Source: Anaerolineaceae bacterium
GTDB taxonomy: Bacteria; Chloroflexota; Anaerolineae; Aggregatilineales; Phototrophicaceae
NCBI GenBank assembly: GCA_002699585.1
Contig: PABP01000027.1
Location: forward strand, 1 to 64,000
Reading direction: 5' to 3'
Length of the DNA: 64,000 nucleotides
A program made the translations under genes and the position numbers. Below the pieces are notes generated by a model. That model searched no databases. It was not told the DNA's origin and worked only from the letters and a program-made list of their open reading frames with translations. This document shows positions 10,004 to 60,578 of the stretch, in pieces (the first letter of the stretch is position 1; every line of letters begins with the position of its first letter).

Positions 10004-10573
10004 TTATGACAGTTCCACGCCGCGATAGACCTCACTGAGGGGTAGGGTGCAGTCGATGGCGGTTAGCGGAAGGGTCGCATCCAGGCCGCTGAAATCTTGC
10101 AAGAGCCAGCCATCCTCACGCCGGGACCAGAGCTGTGCGAAGGGCTTATCCTGCTCCAGAATCAGGTAGATTTGCAACGAGGGCAGGCTGCGATAGTACT
10201 CTGATTTTTGCAGTCGGTCATAGCTTGCTGACGAAGGCGAAATGACTTCAACGACCATAATGGGGTTTAGCAGGATACTGTTATTATCGTCAGCGTATTG
10301 CGTTTCGCCACAGACGACGCTGAGGTCAGGATAAACATAACGATTGTTACTGATCTTGATTTTTAGATCGCTTGAATAGGCCTTGCAATTGCTCCCGCGA
10401 ATTTGAGAACCGATTTCGATGCCGCAATTCATGGTAATGAGTGCGTGATCGCCAGAACCACCCGACATGGCGAAAATATCGCCGTCGAGGTACTCGTGCT
10501 TGACGCCCGTTTCTTCTTCGTAAGCCAGGTATTCTTCGACTGTCCAGTGACGCTTAACCGGGTCGCTCGCCAT
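10004..10573 (-). CDS. Uma2-family putative endonuclease, copy 1
   Basis: The 189-residue product matches the Uma2 (DUF820) family of the PD-(D/E)XK nuclease fold: WTVEEYLAYEEETGVKHEYL at the start, YVYPDLSVVC supplying the Asp, and VVEVISPSSASYDR supplying the Glu region. Uma2 proteins are abundant in cyanobacteria and Chloroflexota and mostly uncharacterised. The start at 10573 (MASDPVKR) was chosen because the paralogue at 13434 begins the same way. It shares roughly two thirds of residues by eye with that paralogue, and both share a promoter sequence. Its biological role is unknown. Confidence 0.82.
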   Translation of the reverse strand: MASDPVKRHWTVEEYLAYEEETGVKHEYLDGDIFAMSGGSGDHALITMNCGIEIGSQIRGSNCKAYSSDLKIKISNNRYVYPDLSVVCGETQYADDNNSILLNPIMVVEVISPSSASYDRLQKSEYYRSLPSLQIYLILEQDKPFAQLWSRREDGWLLQDFSGLDATLPLTAIDCTLPLSEVYRGVELS

Positions 10574-10603
10574 GTGACCAATCCTCATGCAATGAATACC
10601 CTC

Positions 10604-10612: not shown

Positions 10613-10642
10613 TAACTACGACTCGTAGAGTCTGAATTCTGC

Positions 10643-11365
10643 CTACTCCTTATTGTAGATGACGGGCATCTGGCCTTTCCATCTGGCCCAGGTATCCGGG
10701 TCGGTGATGAGGTCCGCCATGAAGTGGCCGACATTGATGCGGCTGGTTTTGCCGGGATTGAGAATGGCGCTCCTGATGGGCGAGGCATGGATCTCGTACT
10801 CGGTGACGTTGCCTTCATCAATCAAATTGTCCGGGCGAACGGCGGCCCACTCAATGACCGGGTCATCCTGGCCGATTTCGACGCGCAGATAATCGGCAGC
10901 GTGTTCGTTATCTGCATGAGGCGGCAGCAGCAGGCGCATCAGCGACGTGATGGCTTTTTCCCCAAATGAAATGGGTTCAGACAGATCGCGGTTGCGGTTG
11001 CCAGTCGTGTTCATGAGCACGAACTTGACAGGGTGGTCGGGCGCGTTGGCTTTGGCCGCGTCACATAATCTGCTGACGGCATCGGTCACCAGGCGGCGCG
11101 GCTGACCGAATAGGCCCTGGAAAGTCATGTTATGGCCGAGGCAGGAGGCGATGGCATCACAACCTGCGACATGCTGGGCCATGTCCTGGTCGGTGAGGTC
11201 GAGCAGGCTGGCCTGGATGACTGTGAGTTTGCTGTTGTCCCTGATGCTGTCGGGTAGCTTTTCTGGTGAGCGAACGATGACCTTGACGGCCTCATCGCGC
11301 GCTAGCAATTGCTGGACCAGTAAGCGTCCGGTTGCGCCAGTTGCACCGACTACGAGTGTTGTCAT
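10643..11365 (-). CDS. NAD(P)-binding atypical short-chain dehydrogenase (NmrA-like)
   Basis: The 240-residue product begins with the glycine-rich motif VVGATGATGRLLVQQLL and has IASCLGHN and FVLMNTTGNRNRD in the expected strands. No clear YxxxK active site is visible, which fits the atypical SDR group (SDR_a5-like) that binds NAD(P) for quinone or flavin chemistry, or only for sensing. AAGGAG precedes the ATG. It stands alone between an Uma2 gene and a divergent exported LysM protein. A related protein lies at 40261. Substrate not deducible. Confidence 0.78.
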   Translation of the reverse strand: MTTLVVGATGATGRLLVQQLLARDEAVKVIVRSPEKLPDSIRDNSKLTVIQASLLDLTDQDMAQHVAGCDAIASCLGHNMTFQGLFGQPRRLVTDAVSRLCDAAKANAPDHPVKFVLMNTTGNRNRDLSEPISFGEKAITSLMRLLLPPHADNEHAADYLRVEIGQDDPVIEWAAVRPDNLIDEGNVTEYEIHASPIRSAILNPGKTSRINVGHFMADLITDPDTWARWKGQMPVIYNKE

Positions 11366-11530
11366 GTCTGCTCCTTATTGAATGGGGTATATATGCTGTA
11401 CGCGCTGCATGCGCGCGAGTAGCAAGTGCGAAATTGCTACAAAGCGGTTCCCTGTTGGCATGGGATAGACGCTCATTGTATAAATAAGTGACGAACTAAC
11501 CAAAAAAGAACCCATCGAAGTTGTAACCCT

Positions 11531-13264
11531 GTGGCAATCCTGCGGCGTCTGATGCGACATCCCGATATACGGCTCATCCTGGCAATTGTTGGCCTGGGTG
11601 CGGTCGCGTTGGTGCTGCTGGCACAGTTGTTCATCAGCCAGGGATTGCTGGACGCGCCGCCACCTGCTGTCAGTGCCAATCTGGCGACACAAACCACGCC
11701 GATGTCGGTGACCGATGCTGCTGGGCTGACTGCTACGGCCATCGTACAGGGTACAGCAACGCCGCTCCCGACTGAGACGCCTACAGCCACTTCCACGTCG
11801 ACATCAACCGCAACTGATTTACCAGCCACTGCGCTGCCTGCAAATCTGCGGACGCATATTGTACAGCGTGGCGATTCCTTCTATCGCATTGGGCAGGCGT
11901 ATGGCGTCACCGCGGAGGCGGTCGCTGAGATCAATGGCATGACGGTAACGGATACCATCTATGTGGGGCAGGAACTTTTCATTCCAGAGGGTGCGATTTT
12001 CGCGGATAGCACGGCATCGCCACCGCCGACTTTCTTACCGACGCTAACGCCTGTGACCGTCGCAGATAATGGCGGCGTGGCTCCGGTTGGGGTCGATAAC
12101 AGCGGTCCCGCACCGACCAACAGCATGGGCTATGTCATCGCGTCACCGCGCCCGACCAATCAGCCTTTACTCGGTGGTGGACCGCGCCCGACCTTCACGC
12201 TGGCGATGCTACCGACCAGCACGTCGTTTCCTTCTGCTACGCCGATGCCTACGAGCACGCCAACGCTCATGCCGCCCACACTGGCACCACCAACCGTCGC
12301 GCCCGCGCAGCCGATTGCGACGGCCATTGTCGCTACTGAAATAATCAGTGAACCAACTGTTACGCCTTTAATCGTTACTGACATCGTGCCGGCGGACGAG
12401 CCAGTTGTTACGAGCGTACCTCCCTCAGCCGTGCCGACTGAACAATTCGTCGCCGCCGCCGAGATGGGCATCGTGCCTGTGACGGCGCTAGTCACACCCA
12501 CACTGCCGCCGCCTTCGCAGGTGAATGGTATTGCCATGTCGGAATTGGTGTACATGCCGCCGGAGGTGATCGCCAACATGCGCGCATTGTATGTGTATGG
12601 GCAAGCTCTTGGGCGCGATCCGCATGCATTTTCTAAAGTGGGTGATAGCACCATTGAGCCGCCACACTTCCTGGTGCGCTTCGACCAGGGGCCCTACAAT
12701 CTGGGCGATTACGCCTATTTGCAGTCCGTGATTGACTACTATCCGGGGTCATTTGAACGCAGTAGCCTGGCTGTTCGGCGCGGGATGCACACCTGGTCGG
12801 CGCTGGACCCGATGTGGGCCGGGGCAGGATGTAATGCCGGAGAAAATCCGGTCGAGTGCGAAATTCGGCTGAACAACCCCAGCGTGATTATCCTGCGGTT
12901 GGGGTCGAATGATCGTGGTGTGCCGGATATGACCGAGGACAATATCCGCGATATCGTGGAAATTTGCTTGGAGAGCGGTGTCGTGCCGATTATCGCCACC
13001 AAGGCGGATCGCTTCGAAGGTAGTGACAGCACCAATGCGGCTATCCGTCAGATCGCTGCTGACTATCGCATCCCCCTATGGGACCTCGACCTGATCGCAG
13101 GCACGATTCCGGGGCACGGACTGGGGCCAGATGGGGTGCATTTTTCGACGTTTTATGCCCATGATTGGACGCTGCAAGCGGCCTGGACGCAGGGTACCGC
13201 GGTGCAAAATCTGACGGGGCTGATGGCCCTTTATCAAGTACGCCGAGTATTAGCGGATTTATGA
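11531..13264 (+). CDS. Membrane-anchored LysM and SGNH-hydrolase-like protein
   Basis: The 577-residue protein starts at a GTG and has a basic N-terminus with one membrane helix (about residues 13-35). A Thr/Pro-rich linker follows, then one LysM domain (about 108-154, HIVQRGDSFYRIGQAYGV) and a second long low-complexity linker to about 330. The C-terminal domain shows KVGDS, LRLGSNDRG and DGVHFS, the Ser, Asn and Asp/His blocks of an SGNH hydrolase. LysM binds peptidoglycan or chitin-like glycans, so the enzyme is probably held at the cell wall to cut esters. CNAGENPVECE is conserved in the paralogues at 24790 and 51395. A small membrane gene overlaps its stop codon. Confidence 0.75.
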   Translation: MAILRRLMRHPDIRLILAIVGLGAVALVLLAQLFISQGLLDAPPPAVSANLATQTTPMSVTDAAGLTATAIVQGTATPLPTETPTATSTSTSTATDLPATALPANLRTHIVQRGDSFYRIGQAYGVTAEAVAEINGMTVTDTIYVGQELFIPEGAIFADSTASPPPTFLPTLTPVTVADNGGVAPVGVDNSGPAPTNSMGYVIASPRPTNQPLLGGGPRPTFTLAMLPTSTSFPSATPMPTSTPTLMPPTLAPPTVAPAQPIATAIVATEIISEPTVTPLIVTDIVPADEPVVTSVPPSAVPTEQFVAAAEMGIVPVTALVTPTLPPPSQVNGIAMSELVYMPPEVIANMRALYVYGQALGRDPHAFSKVGDSTIEPPHFLVRFDQGPYNLGDYAYLQSVIDYYPGSFERSSLAVRRGMHTWSALDPMWAGAGCNAGENPVECEIRLNNPSVIILRLGSNDRGVPDMTEDNIRDIVEICLESGVVPIIATKADRFEGSDSTNAAIRQIAADYRIPLWDLDLIAGTIPGHGLGPDGVHFSTFYAHDWTLQAAWTQGTAVQNLTGLMALYQVRRVLADL

Positions 13265-13383
13265 TGATGAGACGCTACCTGACCCGTGAAAATGTGTTTG
13301 CGTTAGCGCTGTGCCTGCTGGTGATTCTTCTGCTGATCGTCACCACCGATAGCAGCCCCCAGTGGATCTACCAGGGATTTTAG
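13261..13383 (+). CDS. Small single-pass membrane protein (40 aa)
   Basis: The start overlaps the stop of the LysM-SGNH gene as ATGATGATGA, so the two are translationally coupled. The peptide has a basic MMMRRYLTREN head, one membrane helix (about residues 13-28), and a short outside tail ending SPQWIYQGF. Its 3' end is repeated after the next gene at 14001-14054 with mostly synonymous changes, which supports real coding. No known family is recognised; it may assist or anchor the LysM-SGNH protein. Confidence 0.55.
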   Translation: MMMRRYLTRENVFALALCLLVILLLIVTTDSSPQWIYQGF

Positions 13384-13433: not shown

Positions 13434-14000
13434 ATGGCGAGTGATCCGGTTAAGCGCCGCTGGACAGTTGAAGAGTACCTGGCTTACGAAGTCGAAACAG
13501 GTATCAAGCACGAGTACATCGATGGCGAAATTTATGCGATGTCGGGTGGCTCTGGCGATCATGCCCTCATCATGATGAACTGCGGCGCTGAGTTGAACTT
13601 GCAGTTGCGTGGCAGTCAATGCAGGGTCTATTCGAGCGATCTTAAAGTGAAGATCAGCGCCACGAAATACGTCTATCCCGATTTGAGTGTTGTTTGTGGT
13701 GATGCCGAGTATACCGATGAACAACGCAGTATATTGCTAAATCCCACTCTCGTTGTGGAAGTTGTCTCGCCGAGTTCGGCTAGCTATGATCGCGGCAGTA
13801 AGCTCGATTTTTACCAGAGCATGGCCTCAATCCAAGGCTATTGGATCCTGGAGCAGGAAACAGCCAAAGCCCATCTGTATTCTCGTGAGGGTGAGAAATG
13901 GCTGTTTCAGTCATTCAGTGGCGTGGATGCAGTCGTTCCTTTACCCATTATTAGCTGCCAGCTCGCTATGGATGAAGTCTATCGTGGCGTGGACATCTAG
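13434..14000 (+). CDS. Uma2-family putative endonuclease, copy 2
   Basis: The 188-residue protein is paralogous to the one at 10004: it begins MASDPVKRRWTVEEYLAYE and keeps YVYPDLSVVCGD and VVEVVSPSSASYDR, the PD-(D/E)XK core. The upstream promoter region is also shared. Both sides carry copies of the same 54-bp sequence, the 3' end of the small membrane gene (13330-13383 and 14001-14054). The gene therefore sits like a cassette dropped beside or into a tandem copy of that small gene. A terminator follows at 14059. Function beyond the nuclease fold is unknown. Confidence 0.82.
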   Translation: MASDPVKRRWTVEEYLAYEVETGIKHEYIDGEIYAMSGGSGDHALIMMNCGAELNLQLRGSQCRVYSSDLKVKISATKYVYPDLSVVCGDAEYTDEQRSILLNPTLVVEVVSPSSASYDRGSKLDFYQSMASIQGYWILEQETAKAHLYSREGEKWLFQSFSGVDAVVPLPIISCQLAMDEVYRGVDI

Positions 14001-14054
14001 CTGTTGATCGTCACCACCGATAGCAACCCTCAATGGATTTACCAGGGATTTTGA
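14001..14054 (+). repeat. Degenerate copy of the 3' end of the small membrane gene
   Basis: It matches 13330-13383 with only five differences in the first 52 bases, most at third codon positions, and one replacement Ser to Asn. The frame still reads to VTTDSNPQWIYQGF and a stop. It lacks a start and the membrane helix, because the Uma2 gene ends immediately before it. This looks like the remnant of a second copy whose 5' part was replaced. Confidence 0.7.
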
Positions 14055-19254: not shown

Positions 19255-19380
19255 AACTTGAGTGACTTCTATTCTTAACTTCATTTCTATTCTACAGTAT
19301 AAGTACACATTTCAATTATCGGTTATGCAATTAAGATTGTTAGAATCTATTACTTGCTAACAACACAGGAGTTTGATCTG

Positions 19381-19410
19381 ATGCGTAAAGTTCATGGCGA
19401 GGTGATATGA
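19381..19410 (+). CDS. Possible nine-codon leader ORF
   Basis: ATG to TGA encodes MRKVHGEVI, with AGGAG nine bases upstream, a better ribosome site than many genes here. Its TGA overlaps the next gene's ATG as ATGA, so translation of the leader could feed the downstream gene. GAGGTGAT inside the leader is the ribosome site of that next gene. Confidence 0.35.
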   Translation: MRKVHGEVI

Positions 19411-20012
19411 ATACTATCATCGACTTTTTTGTTAGCATAGAATTCTTGACCAATTTTCTGGCGAATGTCTCTGCTGGGATTCTTGTTGGCATGGTTTTCT
19501 ATATAATTATCGATGCACGCTTAGCCAAGAAACGAAGAAAAAGAGCAAATTATGTCGTTTTTGTACTATTGAAAGATTGCCTTCATGAGTTGGATAAAGC
19601 TAAAAAGTGGGTAGAAGAGCTACCAATTGACGAAATCGTTCATGGTAAACCAACTCTACCTAGCCTTCGCAAAGAGGTGTGGGAAAACAAGAGAAGGGAC
19701 ATAGGTTCTGACATCGAAATAGATTATTTACTCCATCTGGATACGCATTTTCAATCACTCAGTTCAGTACACAGAATCTTTGAAGTAATTGCTAAAGTTC
19801 AACCGCCATTGAGACCAGATAATGATTTTAAAAAGCAAATCGTTTTTAACGTGGGTGCTGTATATGAGCGAAACTCAATAACTTTGCAAAAACATATAGA
19901 AAGGATGAAACTAAAAGTTACTATTGCTCAACTAATAGAGGACAGACTAAACGCAGAACAAGAAACATTGAAATTAGTGAAATCAATGCGACAAAGATAT
20001 GGCATAGAATAA
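19407..20012 (+). CDS. Membrane-anchored hypothetical protein
   Basis: The 201-residue product has one membrane helix (about residues 18-35, ANVSAGILVGMVFYIII), a basic stop-transfer ARLAKKRRKR, and then a helical cytoplasmic part, probably coiled coil at the end. No family is recognised. The gene is AT-richer than the MBOAT gene downstream and the lipoprotein gene upstream. It lies beside MntA-HepT, which suggests an accessory insertion. Confidence 0.55.
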   Translation: MNTIIDFFVSIEFLTNFLANVSAGILVGMVFYIIIDARLAKKRRKRANYVVFVLLKDCLHELDKAKKWVEELPIDEIVHGKPTLPSLRKEVWENKRRDIGSDIEIDYLLHLDTHFQSLSSVHRIFEVIAKVQPPLRPDNDFKKQIVFNVGAVYERNSITLQKHIERMKLKVTIAQLIEDRLNAEQETLKLVKSMRQRYGIE

Positions 20013-20077
20013 GTTTCTCAAACTAGAATCCCTCTCTACCTCGCTCAAAAGCACTGAAACTGGTTTAATAGGGGATC

Positions 20078-21541
20078 TTGTTCACACTCCCTGATGACCA
20101 ATTTATGGGCCTGACTGAAATCACCATCCTCCTCATAGCGGCGTTCGCCTACATCCTGATTGTGCCAGGGCGCTGGCGCGGCTGGGTGCTGCTCGTCGGC
20201 AGCATCGTCGGCATGTACTGGCTGTTCCCGGTGCAGAATATCCGCTGGCTGGAATACGGCCTCGCGACGGCGACGTTGGTCATCACGATAGTAAGCTGGT
20301 TCATCACGCGGCCCACAGGCAAACGGGCACGCAAATTCACCAATGAAGACCGCCTTGTCGTGGTGATCGTGGTCCTGATGGTGCTTGCCTTCACCTTTGC
20401 GCGTGAGGTCGATTTCCTCGATAGCCTGATTTCTCGTCCGCCGCCGCTGCCCTCGGTTGCGATGGCGCTGCTGGTTGTCGGCATGTTGCTGGTGCTGATG
20501 CTGCGCCTGCCGCCACGTCTGCAAATGACCTTCGGCCTGCTGGCGATTATCGGCGTGTTTATCGTGATTCGGCTGCCATTTTTGACGACCGCCGCCGCCG
20601 CTTTTTTACGCCAGAATGCAGGTCAGGATGCGTCCTTGGCGGCACCCATCGACATCGGCTGGCTGGGCTTTTCCTATGTGGCCTTCCGGCTGATCCATAC
20701 GATTCGGGATCGGCAGTCGGGGCTGCTGCCTGCGCTATCGCTGCGTGAGTATCTGACCTATGTGCTGTTCCTCCCGGCGTACGTCAGCGGCCCGATTGAC
20801 CGCGCCGAGCGCTTCCTGGAAGATGACCGCGCCCTGGCCGATACCCGCCTGCAAGACCCGCATCGCATCACGGTCGGCCTGTCACGCATTGGTGTGGGCC
20901 TGTTCAAAAAATTCATCATCGCGGATAGCTTGGCCGTTATCAGTCTGAGCGCGACCCTGGTCGATCAAGCAGGGGGGGCGGGTTCGCTGTGGCTGATGCT
21001 GTATGCCTATGCTTTCCGGCTGTACTTCGATTTCAGTGGCTATACGGACATCGCCATTGGGCTGGGGGTGCTTTTCGGCATTGAATTACCAGAGAATTTC
21101 AATCGGCCGTACCTCAAGCAGAGCATCGCCGCGTTCTGGCAGAGCTGGCATATGACGCTCAGCAATTGGGCCAAATCGTATGTGTATTCGCCACTGTCAC
21201 GCAGCCTGATTAAGCAGCGAAAGCTGTCTAATGGCCAGATTGTGATGGTCGCTAATTTGGCGACGATGGTGGTTATCGGGCTGTGGCACGGCATGACGCT
21301 GCCGTTTTTAGCATGGGGGCTATGGCATGGTGCAGGGTTGACGGTGCATAAGCTGTGGTCGGACCGCACGCGCAAGTGGTATCGGGGCCTGAGAGACACA
21401 CCCAATAAGCAGCTTGCATGGGAAATCACGGGCGTGTTGCTGACCTTCCATTTTGTGCTGTTGGGGTGGGTGTGGTTCGCGCTGCCGGATCTGCAATCGG
21501 CGTTGAGTACGTTTAGTCGCTTGCTAGGGGGTGGCGCATGA
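20078..21541 (+). CDS. MBOAT-family O-acyltransferase (DltB/AlgI-like)
   Basis: The 487-residue polytopic protein shows the MBOAT core: YVSGPIDRAERFLEDDRA, YAFRLYFDFSGYTDIAIGLG, ENFNRPYLKQSIAAFWQSWH, and VVIGLWHGMTLPFLAWGLWH with the catalytic His. Such proteins move acyl groups across the membrane onto exported polysaccharide or teichoic acid. A TTG at 20078 with AGGGGAT upstream is the likely start; an ATG at 20105 lacks a ribosome site. Its stop overlaps the SGNH gene by 4 bp. Carrier protein and ligase genes follow in the same direction, giving the parts list of a dlt operon. Confidence 0.85.
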   Translation: MFTLPDDQFMGLTEITILLIAAFAYILIVPGRWRGWVLLVGSIVGMYWLFPVQNIRWLEYGLATATLVITIVSWFITRPTGKRARKFTNEDRLVVVIVVLMVLAFTFAREVDFLDSLISRPPPLPSVAMALLVVGMLLVLMLRLPPRLQMTFGLLAIIGVFIVIRLPFLTTAAAAFLRQNAGQDASLAAPIDIGWLGFSYVAFRLIHTIRDRQSGLLPALSLREYLTYVLFLPAYVSGPIDRAERFLEDDRALADTRLQDPHRITVGLSRIGVGLFKKFIIADSLAVISLSATLVDQAGGAGSLWLMLYAYAFRLYFDFSGYTDIAIGLGVLFGIELPENFNRPYLKQSIAAFWQSWHMTLSNWAKSYVYSPLSRSLIKQRKLSNGQIVMVANLATMVVIGLWHGMTLPFLAWGLWHGAGLTVHKLWSDRTRKWYRGLRDTPNKQLAWEITGVLLTFHFVLLGWVWFALPDLQSALSTFSRLLGGGA

Positions 21542-22683
21542 TCGGCTGGGATTGGCTGACCGACTATGACTACGATTGGCGATTCATACTGCGGGTGATT
21601 GCCAAAGCGGCGCTCGCTTTTATCGTGATTAATTTGCTGTTTGCTGTCTGTAACCTGACCTGGTGGGTCAATCAGATCAGCATCTATAACGGGCTGGTTC
21701 CGGGGCGGGAGCGCTTGCCCTATGGTGAACAGGCGGAAGCTTACAACCTTACGCTCGACAGCCTGGATGCCATGTTCTCTACACATGTCATCAACCGACC
21801 GAAGGCCGAAAACGAGTTCCGTGTAGTCGTGATTGGCGACAGCTCGGTGTGGGGTGTGCTGCTCGATCCGGGTCAAACGTTGGCGGGGCAGATGAACGCG
21901 CTCGACCTGCAAATGGCGGATTATCATTACGAATTTTACAACCTGGGCTATCCGACGCTGTCTGTGCTCAAGGACCTGCTAATTCTGGAACGGGCTGTGC
22001 AGTATCAGCCGGATCTGGTGTTGTGGCTGATTACGCCGGAAAGCCTGCATCGACCGAGCTTACTGGATGCCCCCCTGGTCCAGCGCAATGCGGACGCCAC
22101 CCGTACGCTCATTGAGCGCTACGGTCTGGCCATCGACCCCAATGACACGCGATTTGTGCCGGAACTGGACTTTTTCGGCAGGACGATGGTTGGTCAGCGG
22201 CGAGAACTGGCTGATTGGTGGCGCTTGCAGTTGTATGGCTTCGACTGGGGCATGACGGGCATTGACCATGTGAACGCGCCTTATGACCCACTAACCAATG
22301 ATTTCAGTGAAGATGTGAGCTGGCACGGACTCAGCCCAGGGGATGACTTACAATCGCAGTTGGCGCTGGATGTGCTGGATGCAGGCCGAGCCATAACCGA
22401 GCAGGCAGGTGTTCCGCTGTATGTGGTCAACGAGCCGATCTACATCGCGGACGGCGAAAACAGTGACCTGCACTATAACATCTGGTATCCGAATTGGGCC
22501 TACGATACCTATCAGGGCATCATGAGCGAAAACGCTACCCGTTTTTCTGATGCCTACAGTTCGCCCTGGGATATGATCCTGCCGGAGCACTTCACAGATA
22601 GTCCGGTGCATATGGACCCAGAAGGCACGGCCCAATTCGCAGGCGCGCTCAGTGGTGCAATGATGGGTGTTTTGTTCCCGTGA
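21538..22683 (+). CDS. Membrane-anchored SGNH-type protein, MBOAT partner
   Basis: The 381-residue product has an N-terminal membrane helix (about residues 20-40), then an exported SGNH-like domain with VVIGDSSVWGVLL (GDS block), VLWLITPES and a C-terminal HMDPEGT with a candidate catalytic His. Its position overlapping an MBOAT gene matches AlgX/AlgJ and DltD, which complete acyl transfer outside the cell. Sequence similarity to DltD itself is not obvious. The acceptor is unknown. Confidence 0.75.
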   Translation: MIGWDWLTDYDYDWRFILRVIAKAALAFIVINLLFAVCNLTWWVNQISIYNGLVPGRERLPYGEQAEAYNLTLDSLDAMFSTHVINRPKAENEFRVVVIGDSSVWGVLLDPGQTLAGQMNALDLQMADYHYEFYNLGYPTLSVLKDLLILERAVQYQPDLVLWLITPESLHRPSLLDAPLVQRNADATRTLIERYGLAIDPNDTRFVPELDFFGRTMVGQRRELADWWRLQLYGFDWGMTGIDHVNAPYDPLTNDFSEDVSWHGLSPGDDLQSQLALDVLDAGRAITEQAGVPLYVVNEPIYIADGENSDLHYNIWYPNWAYDTYQGIMSENATRFSDAYSSPWDMILPEHFTDSPVHMDPEGTAQFAGALSGAMMGVLFP

Positions 22684-22693
22684 TGCCATTTTG

Positions 22694-22720
22694 AACCACA
22701 AAGGCACGAAGATCACAAAG
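22694..22720. repeat. Short dispersed repeat (ACCACAAAGGCACGAAG type)
   Basis: AACCACAAAGGCACGAAG followed by ATCACAAAG resembles a purine-rich repeat that is common between genes in several environmental phyla. It starts about ten bases after the SGNH stop. Confidence 0.45.
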
Positions 22721-22811
22721 CAGAATAGGGCATCAAGCAGATAGTGACATCGGCTTCATGATCGTTTATCCTGTCGATCTATACGATTGATATGTTTCGG
22801 TACAGCGTAAA

Positions 22812-22844
22812 AACTCAGCACTCAGTACTCGGAACTCAGCACTG
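22812..22844. repeat. Short tandem repeat of ACTCAGCACT type
   Basis: Variants of ACTCAG(C/T)ACT and ACTCGG follow each other four times within 33 bases, ending 16 bases before the acyl carrier protein start. It may affect the mRNA leader or be a simple replication-slippage tract. Confidence 0.5.
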
Positions 22845-22860
22845 ATTACGGAGTAATCCT

Positions 22861-23112
22861 TTGGACGAAAGCACTGTTCGCCAGCAACTACGCGACTTTA
22901 TCTTAGAAGACCTCATCCGCGACCCGGATTATGATCTGGAAGATGACGAAGGCATCGTCAGCAGTGGCCTGATCGACAGCTTTTCCTTGGCACAGATCGG
23001 CGTGTTTGCCGAAGAAACCTTCGGCGTCTACATCCCCGACCCCGATTTGACCGTCGCCAAGATGGACACGCTCGACTTGATGGTGGCCCGTATTCTGCGC
23101 GATAAAAAATAA
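22861..23112 (+). CDS. Acyl carrier protein (DltC-like role)
   Basis: The 83-residue acidic protein has the phosphopantetheine site GLIDSFSLAQIG, with Ser40 as the attachment residue, on the usual four-helix carrier pattern. The TTG start has GGAG upstream. Its stop shares one base with the ligase start, so the two are coupled. In a cluster with MBOAT and SGNH proteins it probably carries the acyl group from the ligase to the membrane enzyme, as DltC does. Confidence 0.85.
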   Translation: MDESTVRQQLRDFILEDLIRDPDYDLEDDEGIVSSGLIDSFSLAQIGVFAEETFGVYIPDPDLTVAKMDTLDLMVARILRDKK

Positions 23113-24782
23113 TGCTCTCTCGTCAAACACGCCAAACCTATACCACGCTGCTGGATGCAGCCTGCTTGCAATCAGGCGATGCGCCTGTCGTGACCTTCGT
23201 CGCGACGGATGCTGAACCGATCCAATGGACTCGGCGCGACTTCGCTGGGCGCGTGCGTCACGCAGCAGGGCAGTTAGCCCAATTTGGCATCCAACCACGC
23301 GATCTGGTCATCATTGCCCACACGCAGCACCTGGAAAGCATGGTTTTGTTCTGGGCGGCGCTGTACCTGGGCGCGATTCCCTCCATGTTCCCGACCCTGA
23401 CTGAAAAACTCGACCCGGATATTTACGCGCGGAATTTATCCGAATTGGTGCGCCTGAGCGAGGTGAAGGCCGTTTTCGCGGCATCGGAATATGCTGATTT
23501 CCTGCGGGGTATGCTGGCCTGCTCGGTCTACAGTGACAGCGATTTGCTAGCTGCACCTTCGGTCGATGTGCAGCCGTATCAGGCGCAGCCGGAAGATGTG
23601 GCTTTTTTGCAACACAGCAGTGGCACGACTGGCTTGCAGAAAGGCGTGGCGCTGTCGCATGGGGCGGTACTCAATCAGTTGGCCAGTTACAGCGATGCCA
23701 TCCAGCTCAATGATCGTGATGTGATCGTGAGTTGGCTGCCGCTGTACCACGATATGGGCCTTATCGCCGGGTTTTTGCTGCCGCTGGTGCAGGGCGTTCC
23801 GCTGGTGCTGATGTCGCCCTTCGACTGGGTACGGCATCCTGCGCTGCTATTAAAAGCCTTCGCAGAGCATCGCGGTACGCTGTGTTGGTTGCCGAACTTC
23901 GCCTACAATCATCTGGCGAATCGGGTGCGCGAACGCGACAGCCTGGGTCTGGATTTGTCGAACATTCGCGCTATTATTAATTGCTCTGAACCCGTGCGTG
24001 ATGATAGTCATCAGCGGCTTGTGGAGCGTTTCGCTGATAACAGTCTGCGACCCGATATGTTGGCAGTCAGTTATGCGATGGCGGAGAATACATTTGCCGT
24101 CACGCAGACAGTTCCTGGCCATCAGCCGACTATAGATCGTGTGGATTTGGCGGCGTTGCAGCAACAAAAGCGGGCGATTCCCGTAGAAGCAGGTGTGCCA
24201 CAAGTGAGCTGTGGTCGGGTGATCGCTGGCTCGCAGGTGCGCGTCGTTGATGACGATATGCAGCCCTTGTCGGAGCGGCACGTCGGCCATATTCAGGTGC
24301 GCAGTGATTGCATGCTGACGGCCTACTACAAGCGCCCGGACTTGCAGCCTTTCAGTGTCGATGGCTGGTATCAGACGGGCGACCGCGGCTATCTGGCCGA
24401 AGGCGAATTGTACGTGATTGGTCGCACAAAAGACCTGATTATCAACGCGGGCAAGAACGTCTATCCGCAAGATGTGGAAGCGGTCATCAACGAGATTGAG
24501 GGCGTGCATGCGGGTCGAGCGGTGGCCTTTGGTGTGCCTGACGAGCGTGAAGGCACCGAGTTAATCGCTGTAGTAGCCGAAGTCGATAGCGATGATGCCG
24601 CCGAGCACAAGCGCATCAAGCGAGAGGTTCGCTCACAGGTGGGCCGTGCGACCGATGTGACCATCAGCTATGTGACGCTGGTCGAGCGCGGCTGGCTGAT
24701 TAAGACCAGCAGCGGCAAAATCGCTCGTGCTGCCAATCGTGATAAGTGGTTATCCCAGCAAACAGTACGTTCCGAGGGATAG
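23112..24782 (+). CDS. Fatty acyl-AMP ligase-like enzyme (DltA-like role)
   Basis: The 556-residue adenylate-forming enzyme has the ATP motif HSSGTTGLQKGVALSH near residue 168, SWLPLYHDMGLI near 207, YQTGDRGYLAEGEL, and the C-terminal GRTKDLIINAGKNVYPQDVE with the catalytic Lys region. SWLPLYHDMG and YPQD are typical of FAALs, which load acyl groups onto carrier proteins rather than CoA. The adjacent carrier gene (one-base overlap) supports that. It may activate a fatty or short-chain acid for the MBOAT; amino-acid specificity like DltA cannot be excluded. Confidence 0.8.
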   Translation: MLSRQTRQTYTTLLDAACLQSGDAPVVTFVATDAEPIQWTRRDFAGRVRHAAGQLAQFGIQPRDLVIIAHTQHLESMVLFWAALYLGAIPSMFPTLTEKLDPDIYARNLSELVRLSEVKAVFAASEYADFLRGMLACSVYSDSDLLAAPSVDVQPYQAQPEDVAFLQHSSGTTGLQKGVALSHGAVLNQLASYSDAIQLNDRDVIVSWLPLYHDMGLIAGFLLPLVQGVPLVLMSPFDWVRHPALLLKAFAEHRGTLCWLPNFAYNHLANRVRERDSLGLDLSNIRAIINCSEPVRDDSHQRLVERFADNSLRPDMLAVSYAMAENTFAVTQTVPGHQPTIDRVDLAALQQQKRAIPVEAGVPQVSCGRVIAGSQVRVVDDDMQPLSERHVGHIQVRSDCMLTAYYKRPDLQPFSVDGWYQTGDRGYLAEGELYVIGRTKDLIINAGKNVYPQDVEAVINEIEGVHAGRAVAFGVPDEREGTELIAVVAEVDSDDAAEHKRIKREVRSQVGRATDVTISYVTLVERGWLIKTSSGKIARAANRDKWLSQQTVRSEG

Positions 24783-24789
24783 TATTATC

Positions 24790-25719
24790 ATGCGCGTTTT
24801 CTCACTCATTTTTATCATGCTGATGCTAGCAGGCTGCAACCTGGGCGATTCGCCAAGTGTTGCCGCCAGCGCATCAACCCTGCCGACGCCTGTGTTCATC
24901 CGCGTGGACTATTCATTGACTGCTGTTGCTCAGGCCGCAACAGATGGGCCACCAGACAACCCGACCGATCTGCCACAAGACATGGTTGACCGGCTGCGAG
25001 CGATCTATGCTGATGGGCAATCCAAGGGCAAACGCGCCGGGGTATTTTCAAAAGTGGGGGATAGCATCACCGTTTCGCTCAATTTCCTGGCGCCGATTGG
25101 TTTCGGAGAGGTGAGCCTGGGGCAGTTTGCGTATTTGCAGCCGACCATCGACTATTTCAGTCAGGCGATGGCCCGTGAGGGTAACGCCTTCGCTAATCCG
25201 TCGCTGGCTGCTGGGAGCGGGTGGGCCGCCTGGGGCGTGCTGGATCCGCAGATGGCTGATGCCACCTGGTGCGCCGCGGGAGAATCGCCTTTAGCTTGTG
25301 AATATCGCGTGGTTAAGCCGACCATCGCGCTGATTATGTTCGGGACCAATGACAGCGGCTACCGGACTACGGGACAGTTCCGCAGCGATATGGAACGCAT
25401 TGTGCAGTACAGCATCGACGAGGGCATCATCCCCATTTTGAGCACGATCCCCAACCGCCCGGAGATGCCAGCGACGATTGATCGGTTCAATCAGGTGATT
25501 GGCGAGATTGCCGCCAGCCAGAATTTGCCCGTATGGGATTATCACGCCGCGCTCCGTGATCTGCCTAACAGCGGCCTGACCTTCGACAACCTACACCCAT
25601 CATCACCGCCGAATGCGCCCGATACGTCCGCAGACTTCGAACGGTTAACATTTGGCTACAACGTCCGCAACCTGACGGCCCTGCAAATGCTCGATGTGAT
25701 TCTGCGGGTGGTGGAGTAG
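24790..25719 (+). CDS. SGNH-hydrolase-like lipoprotein
   Basis: The 309-residue protein has a signal peptide with lipobox MLAGC. The SGNH blocks are KVGDS (about residue 88), IALIMFGTNDSG and FDNLHPS. WCAAGESPLACEYR is a conserved pair of cysteines shared with the paralogues at 11531 and 51395. The ATG at 24790 was chosen because the signal peptide begins there, seven bases after the ligase stop. It is the last gene of the acylation cluster and may remove or transfer the acyl group outside the cell. Confidence 0.75.
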   Translation: MRVFSLIFIMLMLAGCNLGDSPSVAASASTLPTPVFIRVDYSLTAVAQAATDGPPDNPTDLPQDMVDRLRAIYADGQSKGKRAGVFSKVGDSITVSLNFLAPIGFGEVSLGQFAYLQPTIDYFSQAMAREGNAFANPSLAAGSGWAAWGVLDPQMADATWCAAGESPLACEYRVVKPTIALIMFGTNDSGYRTTGQFRSDMERIVQYSIDEGIIPILSTIPNRPEMPATIDRFNQVIGEIAASQNLPVWDYHAALRDLPNSGLTFDNLHPSSPPNAPDTSADFERLTFGYNVRNLTALQMLDVILRVVE

Positions 25720-25739
25720 GCAGAGATTGGTAGAAGGAA

Positions 25740-26105
25740 ATGCCTTATTTCGTCATGCTCAAAGATGGGGCAGACTATGAAATCAATCTAGTCGAATTTG
25801 CGGTCCAATTAAAACAACGCTGGCCAATGATTGAATTTAGACAGTCATTGCCTGGTGAAACAGTCATTTTGGAGTGGACCATCCGAAACGAGGTAGTCTG
25901 TCTTGATGGTCAGTTACAGGACAGACACGGAACACTGGTTCTCGATGAATACCCGGCTGCTATTGCTGAGTTCGCTGTGTGGTATAGAAACTTTATTCCA
26001 GATCAATATAGGCTGTTTGTCTACCATGATAGTGATGCAGAGCTTGAAGTCGAAATCAGAAATGATTCCAGACCAGAAGAAATCATAAGAGGATTGTCAG
26101 GCTAA
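25740..26105 (+). CDS. Hypothetical protein
   Basis: The 121-residue acidic soluble protein (FRQSLPGETVILEWTIRN, YDSDAELEVEIRN-like end) has mixed alpha/beta composition and no recognisable motif. AAGGA lies immediately before the ATG, which is tight; an in-frame ATG at 25755 would have better spacing. It is 20 bp downstream of the SGNH lipoprotein, and its stop overlaps the convergent XisI gene by 4 bp. AT content is above that of its upstream neighbour. Confidence 0.5.
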   Translation: MPYFVMLKDGADYEINLVEFAVQLKQRWPMIEFRQSLPGETVILEWTIRNEVVCLDGQLQDRHGTLVLDEYPAAIAEFAVWYRNFIPDQYRLFVYHDSDAELEVEIRNDSRPEEIIRGLSG

Positions 26106-26404
26106 ATGGGTACAGCCTCACCTTGATATGCTCGAATGATCTGATTCTCTGTGACGCCACGCGCAATAAGGGCATCGGCCAGTTCTTTATTATTGTGGTC
26201 CAACTCAATGACGATCTGGTTGCCGACGATCCGTGTAATTAGGACCGTGCTGACCATCCGCTTGCCTTTGATATTGGCAATGTCCACCACAGTATAGAGT
26301 TGCTCAGCTTCGTTCTCTGTTAGGTAGCTGAATGCATTCAGACCCTCGCCCGTGTAGGCTTGTAGTTCTTGTAGCAGAATTTGTTTTAAGGTTGTGGCAT
26401 CCAT
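26102..26404 (-). CDS. xisI: XisI-family protein
   Basis: The 100-residue protein matches XisI (fdxN element excision controlling factor): VSTVLITRIVGNQIVIELD followed by ADALIARGVTENQIIRAY. It was described in Anabaena heterocysts with XisH and XisF, but pairs without the fdxN element are widespread in cyanobacteria and Chloroflexota. The start overlaps the XisH end by 19 bp, the usual coupled arrangement. No recombinase partner is nearby. Confidence 0.85.
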   Translation of the reverse strand: MDATTLKQILLQELQAYTGEGLNAFSYLTENEAEQLYTVVDIANIKGKRMVSTVLITRIVGNQIVIELDHNNKELADALIARGVTENQIIRAYQGEAVPI

Positions 26405-51394: not shown

Positions 51395-52534
51395 ATGCGA
51401 AGATTTTCGCTATTCCTTATTGTCATGCTGCTACTCGCAAGCGGGGCTGTTTTCGCCCAGGAGGATGACCCTACGGTGACGACATCATTCCGGCAGGCAT
51501 TGGTGTTCGCTGGGCCGGGAGCGACTTATCGTGACATCGGTGTGCTGAACCCTGGCGTGCCGATCAAGATCATTGAGCGCAACAAGGTCGGCAACTGGGT
51601 ACACGTCCAGATGTACGACACCGATGGCACGGTTACGCTCGATGGCTGGATCATCACCGGCTTTTTGAACTACCCGGACGAACTGCGTTTTAGCGATGTG
51701 CCCGTCAATCCATTTTTGCCGGATGCCGAAACGGGGTCAGTCGAGAGCGGCGTGCTGGTCGAATTGTATGGCGAGCCGCTGGTAGGCGGCATCAGCCCGA
51801 CCATGCGCAGCGTCCTGGAACAGGGCATCGAGGCCGGACGTGACCCGTATCTGGTGACCAAAATCGGTGATAGCCTGATTGTGTCCGATTTGTTCCTTAA
51901 CCTGATGAACCAGACCGACGAAATCCTCGGTCCATATGACACGATTGCCGCTGCCATTGACGCTTTTACAGTAGTCGATGACAGCATCGCTAACGAAATT
52001 GGCATGGCCTCGTTCAGTGTGCTGGACCCCATGTGGGCGCAGGATGAGCGCTGCGAAGCGGGCGAAACCCCGCTCGACTGTGAACTGCGCGTGCATCAGG
52101 CAGGCATTGCCTTCGTCATGTTCGGCCCCAACGATGTGCGCAGCATGAACGAGGAACGCTATGGGGAAGAAATCACGATCATTGTGGAAACCGCATTAGC
52201 GGCGCATGTCGTCCCGGTGCTGACAACCTTCAGCGTGCATCCCGATGATGAACTCTACTGGCAGGGTATCAATCTCAACCGGGAGCTGGTACGCATCGCC
52301 AATGAATACGACTTGCCGCTCATCAACCTGTGGTCTGCCGCGCAGATTCTGCCGGAGTATGGACTGGATGAGGACAAAGTCCATCTGCAAAACAGCGGTT
52401 TTACGTTTTTGAAGTACGATAGCGGTCACGAGGCATGGTACGGGATGAGCCTGTACAACCTGCTGGCGCTGGTTACACTGGACGACCTACGAACCATGAT
52501 TGATGACATTGAAACCAACGAGGGGGCATCCTGA
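51395..52534 (+). CDS. Exported SH3-like and SGNH-hydrolase-like protein
   Basis: The 379-residue protein has a signal peptide (residues 1-21, ends VFAQ) and an SH3b-like domain (about 25-95, with AGPGATYRDIGVLNPG and NWVHVQMYD). The SGNH domain follows, with KIGDS, IAFVMFGPNDVRS and DKVHLQN. RCEAGETPLDCELR is the cysteine pair shared with the paralogues at 11531 and 24790. SH3b domains often bind peptidoglycan, so it is probably a wall-bound esterase-like protein. It overlaps the lipoprotein gene by one base. Confidence 0.75.
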   Translation: MRRFSLFLIVMLLLASGAVFAQEDDPTVTTSFRQALVFAGPGATYRDIGVLNPGVPIKIIERNKVGNWVHVQMYDTDGTVTLDGWIITGFLNYPDELRFSDVPVNPFLPDAETGSVESGVLVELYGEPLVGGISPTMRSVLEQGIEAGRDPYLVTKIGDSLIVSDLFLNLMNQTDEILGPYDTIAAAIDAFTVVDDSIANEIGMASFSVLDPMWAQDERCEAGETPLDCELRVHQAGIAFVMFGPNDVRSMNEERYGEEITIIVETALAAHVVPVLTTFSVHPDDELYWQGINLNRELVRIANEYDLPLINLWSAAQILPEYGLDEDKVHLQNSGFTFLKYDSGHEAWYGMSLYNLLALVTLDDLRTMIDDIETNEGAS

Positions 52535-52926
52535 TGGTGCGTGTATTCATTTTACTATTGATGGCGATCTTAATCGCAAGTTGTGACAGCGGCGCATCCA
52601 CCAATGGCGATGCCAGCGCAACCGACGATGCGGCGGCGGCAGTCGAAGGCTACCTGACAGCCAAGGTCAGCAACGACGCCGATGGCATCCGGCGCTATTT
52701 GTGCAGCGCGATGGAAGCCGACTTCGACCGAGAAGTGCAGTCTTTCAGTGGCGTGGAAGCCGAAATCGAAGGCATGGCCTGTGCCAGCGACGAAGGCGGC
52801 GCAACGGTCACCTGCGAGGGCACGATTGTGGCGGTCTATGGCGGCGAGAACCGTGATTTCCCGTTGGGGACATACAGCGTCGTCGAGGAGGACGGCGAGT
52901 GGAAATGGTGCGGCGAAGCCGGATAG
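52534..52926 (+). CDS. Small lipoprotein, DUF4878-like
   Basis: The 130-residue product has a signal peptide with lipobox LIASC (Cys about 17), a short linker, and an alpha/beta domain (AVEGYLTAKVSNDADGIRRY) like the NTF2-fold DUF4878 family. Its start shares a base with the SGNH stop (TGATG), so they are coupled. It may be a partner of that SGNH protein. Confidence 0.65.
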   Translation: MVRVFILLLMAILIASCDSGASTNGDASATDDAAAAVEGYLTAKVSNDADGIRRYLCSAMEADFDREVQSFSGVEAEIEGMACASDEGGATVTCEGTIVAVYGGENRDFPLGTYSVVEEDGEWKWCGEAG

Positions 52927-59142: not shown

Positions 59143-60570
59143 ATGTCGTTTATCTCCCCGGAATACGTCCTGTTCTTCAGCCTGGTGGTGCCGCTGTACT
59201 TCGCCATCGGGCATCGCTGGCGCTGGCTGTGGCTGCTGCTGACCAGCTATGTTTTCTATGCCTATGGCAACATCGCCTACCTGCCGATCATCATTTTCAG
59301 CACCCTGGTCGATTTTGTGGCCGGTCGCCAGATCGCCCGAACAGAGCAGGTGGGCATCCGCCGCTTGTGGCTGATCGCCAGCCTGGGCATCAACCTGGGC
59401 GTGCTGTTCTTCTTCAAATATTTCAATTTTTTCAGTGAGAGCGTCAGCACGGTCACAGGCAGCGACCCGATCTGGTTGGATGTGGTGCTGCCGGTCGGCA
59501 TCTCGTTCTATACCTTCCAGTCGATGAGCTACACGATTGATATTTTCCGCAGGCAGCTTCAGCCAGAACCGAGCCTTGGCCGATATGCCGCCTATGTCGC
59601 CATGTTCCCGCAGCTTGTGGCCGGTCCGATTGAGCGTGCCTCCAACTTGCTGCCGCAGATGCACGTCCGCCACCAATTCGATGTGGATCGGGCGGTCAGT
59701 GGGCTGCAAGTGATGCTGTGGGGCTTCTTCAAGAAGGTCGTCATCGCGGATCGGCTGGCAGTGTATGTGAACGCGGTCTACAACGATGTCGGCAGCTATT
59801 CTGGTGCGCCGCTGATATTGGCGACGCTCTTCTTCGCTGTACAGATTTATTGCGATTTCAGTGGCTACAGCGACATCGCCATTGGTACGGCGCGCGTCAT
59901 GGGCTTCGACCTGATGGAGAACTTCCGGCAGCCGTATTTTTCGCGCAGCGTCGGCGAGTTCTGGCGGCGATGGCATATCTCGCTGTCGTCGTGGTTCCGG
60001 GACTACGTGTACATTCCGCTGGGGGGCAACCGCGTATCGCTGAGTCGGCATGTGGTCAATGTGCTGATCGTCTTTTTGCTGAGCGGGCTGTGGCACGGGG
60101 CCGCCTGGACCTTCGTCATATGGGGTGGGCTGCATGGGCTGATGGTCGCTATACAGACGCTTTTCCAAAGGCGGGGATGGTGGATTTTCCCGCGTGGCGC
60201 TGTGGGCAGTATCGTCACATGGCTGCTGACACTGGCCTTCATCTGCGTGACCTGGGTCTTCTTTAGGGCCAATTCTCTGGATGATGCCATCTATGTGCTG
60301 ACGCACGTCGCGCAGCCCTATGCAAAAGATGTCATGGCGCCTTTCGCTGATGGCCTGCTAGGGACCAGCACCGAGTTCTGGCTGTCGTGGGTGCTGATCG
60401 GGCTGCTGTTCGCTGCCGATGGTCTACTCGCCAACAGCAGCTTATCGTTACTAATGAGTCGAATCGCCTGGGTGCCCCGTTGGGTGCTGTATTATGTGCT
60501 GGCCGCTGCGGTCATTTTCAGCGGACTATATGGCACGGGTGCGGCTCAGTTCATTTATTTCCAATTTTAG
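59143..60570 (+). CDS. MBOAT-family O-acyltransferase, second copy
   Basis: The 475-residue polytopic protein has the AlgI/PatA-like core: FYTFQSMSYTIDIFRR, VAGPIERASNLLPQM, IYCDFSGYSDIAIGTA and FLLSGLWHGAAWTFVIWGGL with the catalytic His. It is closer to alginate-type O-acetyltransferases than the copy at 20078. It is GC-rich and lies between two AT-rich accessory blocks. It is followed by its SGNH-like partner nine bases after its stop. Confidence 0.87.
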   Translation: MSFISPEYVLFFSLVVPLYFAIGHRWRWLWLLLTSYVFYAYGNIAYLPIIIFSTLVDFVAGRQIARTEQVGIRRLWLIASLGINLGVLFFFKYFNFFSESVSTVTGSDPIWLDVVLPVGISFYTFQSMSYTIDIFRRQLQPEPSLGRYAAYVAMFPQLVAGPIERASNLLPQMHVRHQFDVDRAVSGLQVMLWGFFKKVVIADRLAVYVNAVYNDVGSYSGAPLILATLFFAVQIYCDFSGYSDIAIGTARVMGFDLMENFRQPYFSRSVGEFWRRWHISLSSWFRDYVYIPLGGNRVSLSRHVVNVLIVFLLSGLWHGAAWTFVIWGGLHGLMVAIQTLFQRRGWWIFPRGAVGSIVTWLLTLAFICVTWVFFRANSLDDAIYVLTHVAQPYAKDVMAPFADGLLGTSTEFWLSWVLIGLLFAADGLLANSSLSLLMSRIAWVPRWVLYYVLAAAVIFSGLYGTGAAQFIYFQF

Positions 60571-60578
60571 GTGCAGCT

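Follow-up and report, generated by a model that had tools for sequence, protein, structure and literature searches.

The window analyzed here is a 64,000-nucleotide stretch of DNA from an Anaerolineaceae bacterium of the phylum Chloroflexota (assembly GCA_002699585.1, contig PABP01000027.1, positions 1 to 64,000). Five open reading frames (ORFs) on its forward strand, at positions 20078–25719, almost abut one another and encode a membrane-bound O-acyltransferase (MBOAT), an SGNH protein (SGNH1), an acyl carrier protein (ACP), a fatty acyl-AMP ligase (FAAL), and an SGNH lipoprotein of a second family (SGNH2). The five same-strand genes and their protein types had been given in an initial annotation, which read them as a dlt-like acylation cluster, and both are confirmed. 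A DltX-like microprotein, two further SGNH2 paralogues, and a small lipoprotein (LP3) were found in the window in addition. Taken together, these genes probably encode all the parts of a Dlt-type acyl relay across the membrane, with a FAAL replacing DltA; the donor would be a fatty or related non-amino carboxylic acid and the acceptor would be extracytoplasmic, probably associated with the cell wall. The positions of the components are collected in Table 1.

Table 1. Components of the Candidate Acyl Relay in the Window
Feature	Position	Strand	Evidence
SGNH2 paralogue a, N-terminal hydrophobic segment, LysM and SGNH domains	11531..13264	+	LysM 45.5 bits; GDSL_2 21.1 bits (below cut-off); SGNH2 profile 235 bits
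DltX-like microprotein, 40 aa, one hydrophobic segment, C-terminal WIYQGF	13261..13383	+	coding test on relatives; genome-wide co-occurrence
Truncated second copy of the dltX 3' end, immediately 3' of the Uma2 gene at 13434-14000	14001..14054	+	
DltB-like MBOAT without C-terminal shuttle motif, probable start ATG 20105	20078..21541	+	PF03062 96 bits; TIGR04091 230 bits
SGNH1, single N-terminal helix and SGNH domain, putative DltD-like role	21538..22683	+	predicted fold; invariant Ser102, His358
Acyl carrier protein, TTG start, phosphopantetheine site Ser40	22861..23112	+	NCBIfam ACP/DltC matches
Fatty acyl-AMP ligase (FAAL), occupying the place of DltA	23112..24782	+	AMP-binding 185 bits; PDB matches
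SGNH2 b, SGNH lipoprotein, GDS/GTND/DxxH blocks, probable start ATG 24790	24727..25719	+	GDSL 47.8 bits, lipobox
SGNH2 paralogue c, bacterial SH3 domain, detached accessory gene	51395..52534	+	SH3_3 27.0 bits (at cut-off); GDSL_2 28.1 bits (below cut-off); SGNH2 profile 165 bits
LP3, small lipoprotein; family adjoins the MBOAT in relatives	52534..52926	+	LP3 profile 148 bits

Identity of the Ligase and Its Carrier

The cluster was compared with relatives at 106 orthologous loci, 26 from a genome set of the phylum (including the window) and 80 from a scan of named-genome contigs, these being the best 80 of 373 relatives. The loci are not all independent; some appear to be one contig represented twice (L034 and L126, both 4684 bases).

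On sequence criteria the ligase is FAAL-like and not DltA-like. Fifteen of its 18 best sequence matches in the PDB are FAAL or FadD proteins, and the other three are keto- or amino-acid adenylation domains. The best fold matches of its predicted model, which has a predicted local distance difference test (pLDDT) score of 82, are FAALs. Sixteen FAALs were compared with five DltA sequences encoded at canonical loci within the phylum. The FAAL insertion of ∼22 amino acids is present in 15 of the 16 FAALs, partly deleted in the remaining one (L037), and absent from all five DltA proteins. The position of the DltA motif FD(L/V)S, whose aspartate binds the amino group of D-alanine, reads YHDMG in the FAALs. 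Residues P94 and P210 of the ligase are invariant in 16 of 16 sequences and align with P107 and P226 of EcFAAL, with an alignment index that is one behind the published EcFAAL numbering. These two prolines are described as lying at the mouth of the 4'-phosphopantetheine pocket of FAALs (PMC8460268).

No DltA above cut-off was detected in the genome, the best match to TIGR01734 being 96 bits vs a cut-off of 559.85. The initial annotation had proposed a FAAL-type ligase and had named the insertion as a feature to be checked; for the family of the ligase, the proposal is borne out by the insertion, by the absence of the FDxS motif, and by the genome without a DltA above cut-off.

The NCBIfam ACP and DltC matches of the carrier are all under cut-off (best 33 bits; DltC 18.7 bits). 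Its Ser40, within the motif GLIDSF, is invariant in 17 sequences. The ACP gene is found just upstream of the FAAL gene in 36 of the 47 FAAL-bearing loci, and the phosphopantetheinyl transferase family PF01648 is matched once in the genome. No polyketide synthase or nonribosomal peptide synthetase domain was matched among the 16 window proteins that were scanned.

Acyltransferase and Candidate Shuttle Microprotein

The sequence comparisons support the assignment of the MBOAT as DltB-type rather than AlgI-type. Its score against TIGR04091 (DltB) is below the equivalog cut-off of 375 bits, and DltB entries (the 6bug and 8jem groups) are its sole PDB matches in a phmmer search up to an E value of 1. 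Residues His358 and His404 are invariant across 25 aligned MBOATs and align with His289 and His336 of DltB, which are named as active residues in PMC11035591. A tree built from 31 MBOATs places the 15 orthologues sampled in a single clade (0.955), next to that of DltB (1.0). Under midpoint rooting this clade lies apart from the MBOATs that bear a shuttle motif; the latter are not monophyletic, and one other paralogue is nested among them.

In the Dlt pathway the acyl group is passed by DltB to the tyrosine in the C-terminal FxYxxF motif of DltX, and in the PatA/AlgI-type enzymes that hexapeptide is fused to the MBOAT itself, as described in PMC12148441. The motif F-x-Y-x-x-F was found in the last 30 amino acids of 0 of the 106 MBOAT orthologues (a looser pattern is present there in 21), and it was found at the end of a second MBOAT of the window and of 10 paralogues from other loci. 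Because its own C-terminal hexapeptide is absent, the MBOAT of the cluster should need a separate DltX. A search for a DltX-like ORF limited to positions 19300–26300 gave none. The candidate at 13261–13383 ends PQWIYQGF, with Trp in place of the first Phe of the FxYxxF tail. The invariant Tyr50-Asn51 pair of SGNH1, just past the membrane helix, had been considered as the source of the shuttle tyrosine and was dropped once the WIYQGF ORFs were found in relatives and at position 13261 of the window.

The corresponding ORFs of the relatives typically have 37–43 codons and one hydrophobic segment, and mostly end PxWIYQGF. They were found in 87 of the 106 loci on the strand of the MBOAT, with 0 matches on the opposite strand. 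Relative to the start of the MBOAT frame, 70 of them are within 200 nucleotides, 16 are 200–2400 nucleotides upstream, and that of the window is 6.7 kb away. By its substitution pattern dltX evolves as a protein. The mean entropies at the three codon positions are 0.86, 0.44, and 1.41, and for 81 dereplicated copies of 84 (3240 pairs) the proportion of nonsynonymous differences (pN) is 0.23 vs 0.70 for synonymous differences (pS). The Pro, Ile, Tyr, and final Phe of the tail are identical in all 81 dereplicated copies. As a positive control, the dlt loci L059, L060, L062, and L064 were found to contain a microprotein ending F[IV]YQG[FY]. No Pfam model matches the dltX microprotein.

In Leptolinea sp. 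HRD-7 the DltX ORF is present as hrd7_34310, a 'hypothetical protein' of 47 amino acids encoded between an LP3-family lipoprotein and the MBOAT; the FAAL (46% identical) is encoded ∼34 kb from the MBOAT on the same plasmid. On this plasmid, to which the search was confined, no ACP, SGNH1, or SGNH2 gene was found beside the MBOAT and none is annotated beside the FAAL.

The second MBOAT of the window (59143–60570, + strand) ends FIYFQF and is followed by an SGNH-like gene that extends to 61757 (GDSL_2 18.2 bits, below cut-off). Neither a ligase nor a carrier was seen beside these genes, which from their sequences look like an ordinary AlgI/PatA-type O-acylation pair (59143–61757).

Co-inheritance of the Components

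A close MBOAT orthologue (at least 209 bits) is present in 26 of 301 genomes of the phylum, all 26 of them belonging to the window's class (38 genomes), and the best MBOAT score in the other 263 genomes is 158 bits. At those 26 loci, some of which are on short contigs, a FAAL is encoded nearby in 16, an ACP in 17, and SGNH1 in 17. The titles of the best 80 of 373 relatives name Chloroflexota lineages in 79 cases (Anaerolineae, Aggregatilineales, Ardenticatenia, Thermoflexus, and other Chloroflexota) and Bacteroidetes in one (L071). The latter, a contig of a metagenome-assembled genome, encodes an MBOAT 55% identical to the query together with dltX and SGNH1 and is probably a mis-binned Chloroflexota contig. 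The search beyond Chloroflexota covered plasmid records only; 130 of these contain an MBOAT match, one of them at a coverage of at least 80% (Leptolinea, Chloroflexota).

SGNH1, ACP, and FAAL are all encoded near the MBOAT in 41 of the 106 loci. SGNH1 has the orientation of the MBOAT in 72 of 73 cases, and the FAAL does in 46 of 47. As a genomic pattern, the arrangement of the cluster is beyond chance. Profile searches of a separate draw of 199 genomes of the class, with thresholds of at least 420, 280, and 300 bits for FAAL, MBOAT, and SGNH1, identified these proteins in 39, 36, and 36 genomes, respectively. FAAL and MBOAT occur together in 34 genomes, MBOAT and SGNH1 in 34, FAAL and SGNH1 in 35, and all three in 33; the pairwise Fisher p values, which ignore shared ancestry, range from 1.4e-30 to 1.6e-33. 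A 21-base pattern for WIYQGF followed by a stop codon is present in 34 of the 199 genomes, each of which is one of the 36 with the MBOAT (Fisher p 2.6e-36), and the reversed control pattern is present in 0 of 199. The two MBOAT genomes lacking the pattern are G240, in which the copy reads FIYQGF, and G345, in which the MBOAT frame has a stop. Because several genomes hold the parts on separate contigs, close linkage alone does not explain the co-occurrence. The initial annotation had made its reading depend on co-conservation beyond this genome, and such co-conservation is observed across the 106 loci and the 199 genomes.

Extracytoplasmic Proteins

SGNH1 has no Pfam or NCBIfam match at an E value of 0.01. 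Its predicted model (pLDDT 87) has an SGNH fold with one N-terminal helix, and the Foldseek matches are to esterases, DltD (7dxm, 3bma, and 6o93), and PatB (7tlv), with query TM scores of ∼0.3–0.4. The match to DltD 7dxm is at the level of the fold (E 3.5e-4, TM 0.41), and the predicted model suggests a likeness to DltD that is analogous in role only. Across 17 sequences, Ser102, Asn298, and His358 do not vary. The initial annotation had matched the first four genes of the cluster to the roles of DltB, DltD, DltC, and DltA. This comparison stands for a DltB-type MBOAT, a carrier, and an SGNH partner, and at the level of protein family it fails for DltA, of which there is none above cut-off, and for DltD, of which there is none in the genome.

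SGNH2 genes are found near the MBOAT in 58 of the 106 loci and LP3 genes in 52. In a set of 50 SGNH2 sequences (47 of 93 fetched and 3 from the window), SH3_3 domains are present in 16 and LysM domains in 5. Three blocks are recognized, namely GD[S/C], with 35 Ser and 15 Cys; a G-x-N-D-like block, with Asn in 43 of 50; and D-x-x-H, with Asp in 45 of 50 and His in 49 of 50. From these alignments, part of the SGNH2 family may use a cysteine nucleophile. LP3 matches no Pfam family above cut-off (DUF3568, E 0.23). The genome contains five matches to the LytR-CpsA-Psr family, and these matches together with the SH3_3 and LysM domains of SGNH2 are hints of a wall acceptor. DltE is described as a D-alanyl-lipoteichoic acid esterase encoded in a dlt operon (PMC10241514), and by analogy the SGNH2 proteins may act like DltE or like FmtA (PMC12505958).

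Proposed Relay and Comparison with Known Systems

The order FAAL, ACP, MBOAT, DltX tyrosine, and SGNH1 serine is inferred from the components present and from what is published on the Dlt and Pat mechanisms, as are the chemistry of every step, the acid, and the acceptor. In the first step, the FAAL would use ATP to adenylate a free fatty or related non-amino acid and load it onto the phosphopantetheine of the dedicated ACP. The ACP would then dock at the cytoplasmic face of the MBOAT, and at the outer face the tyrosine in the microprotein's WIYQGF tail would receive the acyl group from the MBOAT. From the acyl-tyrosine the group would pass to the serine of membrane-anchored SGNH1, and SGNH1 would esterify a hydroxyl on an acceptor outside the cytoplasm; a glycopolymer that is wall-associated or lipid-anchored is the most likely acceptor. 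Trimming or relocation of the acyl groups would finally fall to the secreted SGNH2 proteins, many of which have an SH3 or a LysM domain.

The proposed system resembles DltXABCD, which is found in Firmicutes and in other Chloroflexota loci of this analysis, in its adenylating ligase, its carrier, its MBOAT without a C-terminal shuttle, its separate single-pass microprotein with an aromatic-x-Tyr-x-x-Phe tail, and its membrane-anchored SGNH protein. Extra secreted esterase-like genes are a further likeness to dlt, for which DltE (PMC10241514) and FmtA (PMC12505958) are described. It differs in having a FAAL instead of DltA, an SGNH1 without a DltD sequence match, an MBOAT and an ACP that score under the DltB and DltC cut-offs, and several SGNH2 paralogues and LP3 lipoproteins. 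The tail reads WIYQGF here, whereas a known DltX has FLYFGF (PMC11035591). The MBOAT–SGNH pair and the acyl-tyrosine shuttle logic are shared with PatA/PatB and the AlgI-type O-acetyltransferases as described in PMC12148441, but in those systems the donor is acyl-CoA (coenzyme A), the shuttle hexapeptide is on the MBOAT, and neither a carrier nor a ligase takes part. In lipopeptide, polyketide, and mycolate pathways, starter modules with a FAAL adjoining an ACP are described (PMC11837247); unlike there, the acyl-ACP would be paired here with an MBOAT, a shuttle peptide, and SGNH proteins.

Two genomes, G269 (L054 and L062) and G028 (L053 and L064), contain this system together with canonical dlt genes. 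The canonical DltA proteins score 583.5 (G269) and 586.6 bits (G028) against PRK04813 (cut-off 476), and the canonical DltD proteins score 146.6 and 170.8 bits, respectively (cut-off 150). DltB scores 446.3 bits in L064 and DltC 68.0 bits in L062. In the L062 locus of G269, two different DltA genes (PRK04813 scores of 583.5 and 571.9 bits) flank DltB.

The bacterial class of the window is mostly uncultured, and we take its members to be probably single-membrane bacteria. It is a tentative suggestion, to be held with considerable reserve, that a repurposed Dlt machine in this class hangs long-chain fatty acids covalently on wall or surface polymers by a route unrelated to mycolic acids. If true, the wall would be lipid-coated, and a hydrophobic chain would cross the membrane on the tyrosine of a 40-residue peptide via a Dlt-type relay. 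The proposed system in general, whatever its acid, would show the Dlt-type relay of ligase, carrier, MBOAT, shuttle, and SGNH protein to be a modular exporter of activated acyl groups whose cargo is set by the ligase plugged into it. It would also link the FAALs of lipopeptide, polyketide, and mycolate pathways to decoration of the envelope, and it provides a lead on the envelope of the Anaerolineae. Among the titles and abstract openings listed by joined-term searches of the open-access literature, none describes a FAAL-driven Dlt system. What would be new here is that the Dlt-type logic operates with another ligase and another cargo; the DltX/PatA acyl-tyrosine shuttle itself is already published (PMC12148441).

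Weighing of the Proposed Relay

Several observations weigh against a complete FAAL-driven relay. The ligase scores below every NCBIfam cut-off listed, those of the FAALs included, and therefore falls in no named FAAL subfamily there. DltD (PF04914) has no match in the genome, and SGNH1 has no sequence match to it. The best VIA-align matches of SGNH1 are TesA-type SGNH thioesterases (Z 17); DltD is not in the listed VIA-align rows, which is no evidence against kinship. The residue three positions before the SGNH1 histidine is Ser and not Asp in the window, and in the 17 sequences it is Ser in 14 and Asp, Thr, and Glu in 1 each. In the window, dltX and the MBOAT gene are separated by 6.7 kb that contain unrelated genes. 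No dltX was found in 19 of the 106 loci, of which 12 have 2.4–9 kb upstream of the MBOAT frame and seven have less than 800 bases.

The distribution of the components also has exceptions. Flanks of at least 5.5 kb on both sides of the MBOAT are available at 58 loci, and 13 of these have no SGNH1, ACP, or FAAL nearby. In G055 (L046) and G120 (L048), which belong to one genus, dltX, MBOAT, and SGNH1 are kept and no FAAL or ACP is in the locus; in G055 no FAAL was found genome-wide at the threshold used. This genus may draw acyl groups from another carrier. A FAAL-like gene occurs without an MBOAT in G308, G431, and G400, and one or two parts are missing from G371, G345, G393, and G424, which are drafts of 500 to 1450 contigs. 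Eight FAAL loci lying away from the MBOAT were examined; no ACP was found by profile in four of them (L151–L154), and an ACP is present in the other four (L150 and L166–L168), L150 also having SGNH1 and SGNH2. Finally, the Fisher tests take no account of common descent, and the score thresholds were chosen after viewing the gaps in the score lists.

Several loci have further features. L046 and L048 also keep two SGNH2 genes. In L050, a 585-amino acid multi-pass membrane protein is encoded (10628–12382) at the expected place of SGNH1, between the MBOAT and the ACP. The FAAL-like frames of L156, L157, and L169, from genomes without an MBOAT (G431 and G400), have ∼1040 codons and perhaps encode FAALs fused to another domain.

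Four other explanations were considered. The same relay might carry a short-chain, hydroxy, or other small acid, such as butyrate, a 3-hydroxy acid, or an aryl acid, loaded by the FAAL-like ligase. The ligase matches include 6ulx and 4r0m, which are keto-acid and phenylalanine adenylation domains, and the MBOAT–SGNH relays described in PMC12148441 move acetyl or D-alanyl groups, but the nearest solved sequence relatives are FAAL and FadD proteins, several of the entries having fatty acyl ligands. A small acid as the cargo is a possibility to which a minority weight is given.

Instead of a wall or surface polymer, the acceptor might be a small metabolite, a membrane lipid, or a secreted lipoprotein such as LP3. 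Such an acceptor would fit the co-location of LP3 with about half of the loci (52 of 106) and the lack of SGNH1 in the clusters of L049, L050, and L053; in G028 (L053), the one genome among these that a genome-wide search covered, SGNH1 is encoded on another contig. Against it, the MBOAT is accompanied by SGNH1 in 34 genomes, including some in which the two are on different contigs, the SH3_3 and LysM domains on SGNH2 are typical of wall-binding proteins, and LytR-CpsA-Psr proteins are encoded in the genome. An acceptor other than a polymer is likewise a possibility of minority weight.

If the ligase were an ordinary acyl-CoA synthetase, the MBOAT would use acyl-CoA and the ACP would serve another purpose. 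The top NCBIfam model, PRK07768, is named as a CoA ligase, and no ACP gene is just upstream in 11 of the 47 FAAL loci, three of which are at a contig end. The insertion and the pocket prolines of the ligase, the FAALs as its top PDB matches, and the upstream ACP of the other 36 loci argue against this explanation, as does the account of acyl-CoA relays in PMC12148441, where they are described as having neither a carrier nor a DltX microprotein, both of which are present here. A CoA-dependent system is accordingly improbable. A diverged canonical D-alanylation operon would have the identical list of parts and the same shuttle logic but is very improbable, given a genome without DltA above cut-off and without DltD, the absence of the FD(L/V)S motif, and the presence of canonical dlt genes alongside this system in G028 and G269.

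Arrangement of the Genes in the Window

For the FAAL-driven relay that is preferred here, the components are dispersed over the window. Because SGNH2 and LP3 genes adjoin the MBOAT in many relatives, the genome of the window seems to contain the parts of a single cluster in scattered form. The dltX gene follows the LysM-bearing SGNH2 paralogue a and is separated from the MBOAT by the Uma2 gene, the truncated dltX end, and unrelated genes. Promoter-like sites number 7 vs 6.2 in shuffled sequences and terminator-like sites 4 vs 6.0, which is no clear excess.

The truncated copy of the dltX 3' end comprises 54 bases, and its differences are mostly synonymous. The sequence reads as if insertion of the Uma2 gene had duplicated or recombined the end of dltX. 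Another Uma2-like gene of the same family is located at 10004–10588 on the reverse strand.

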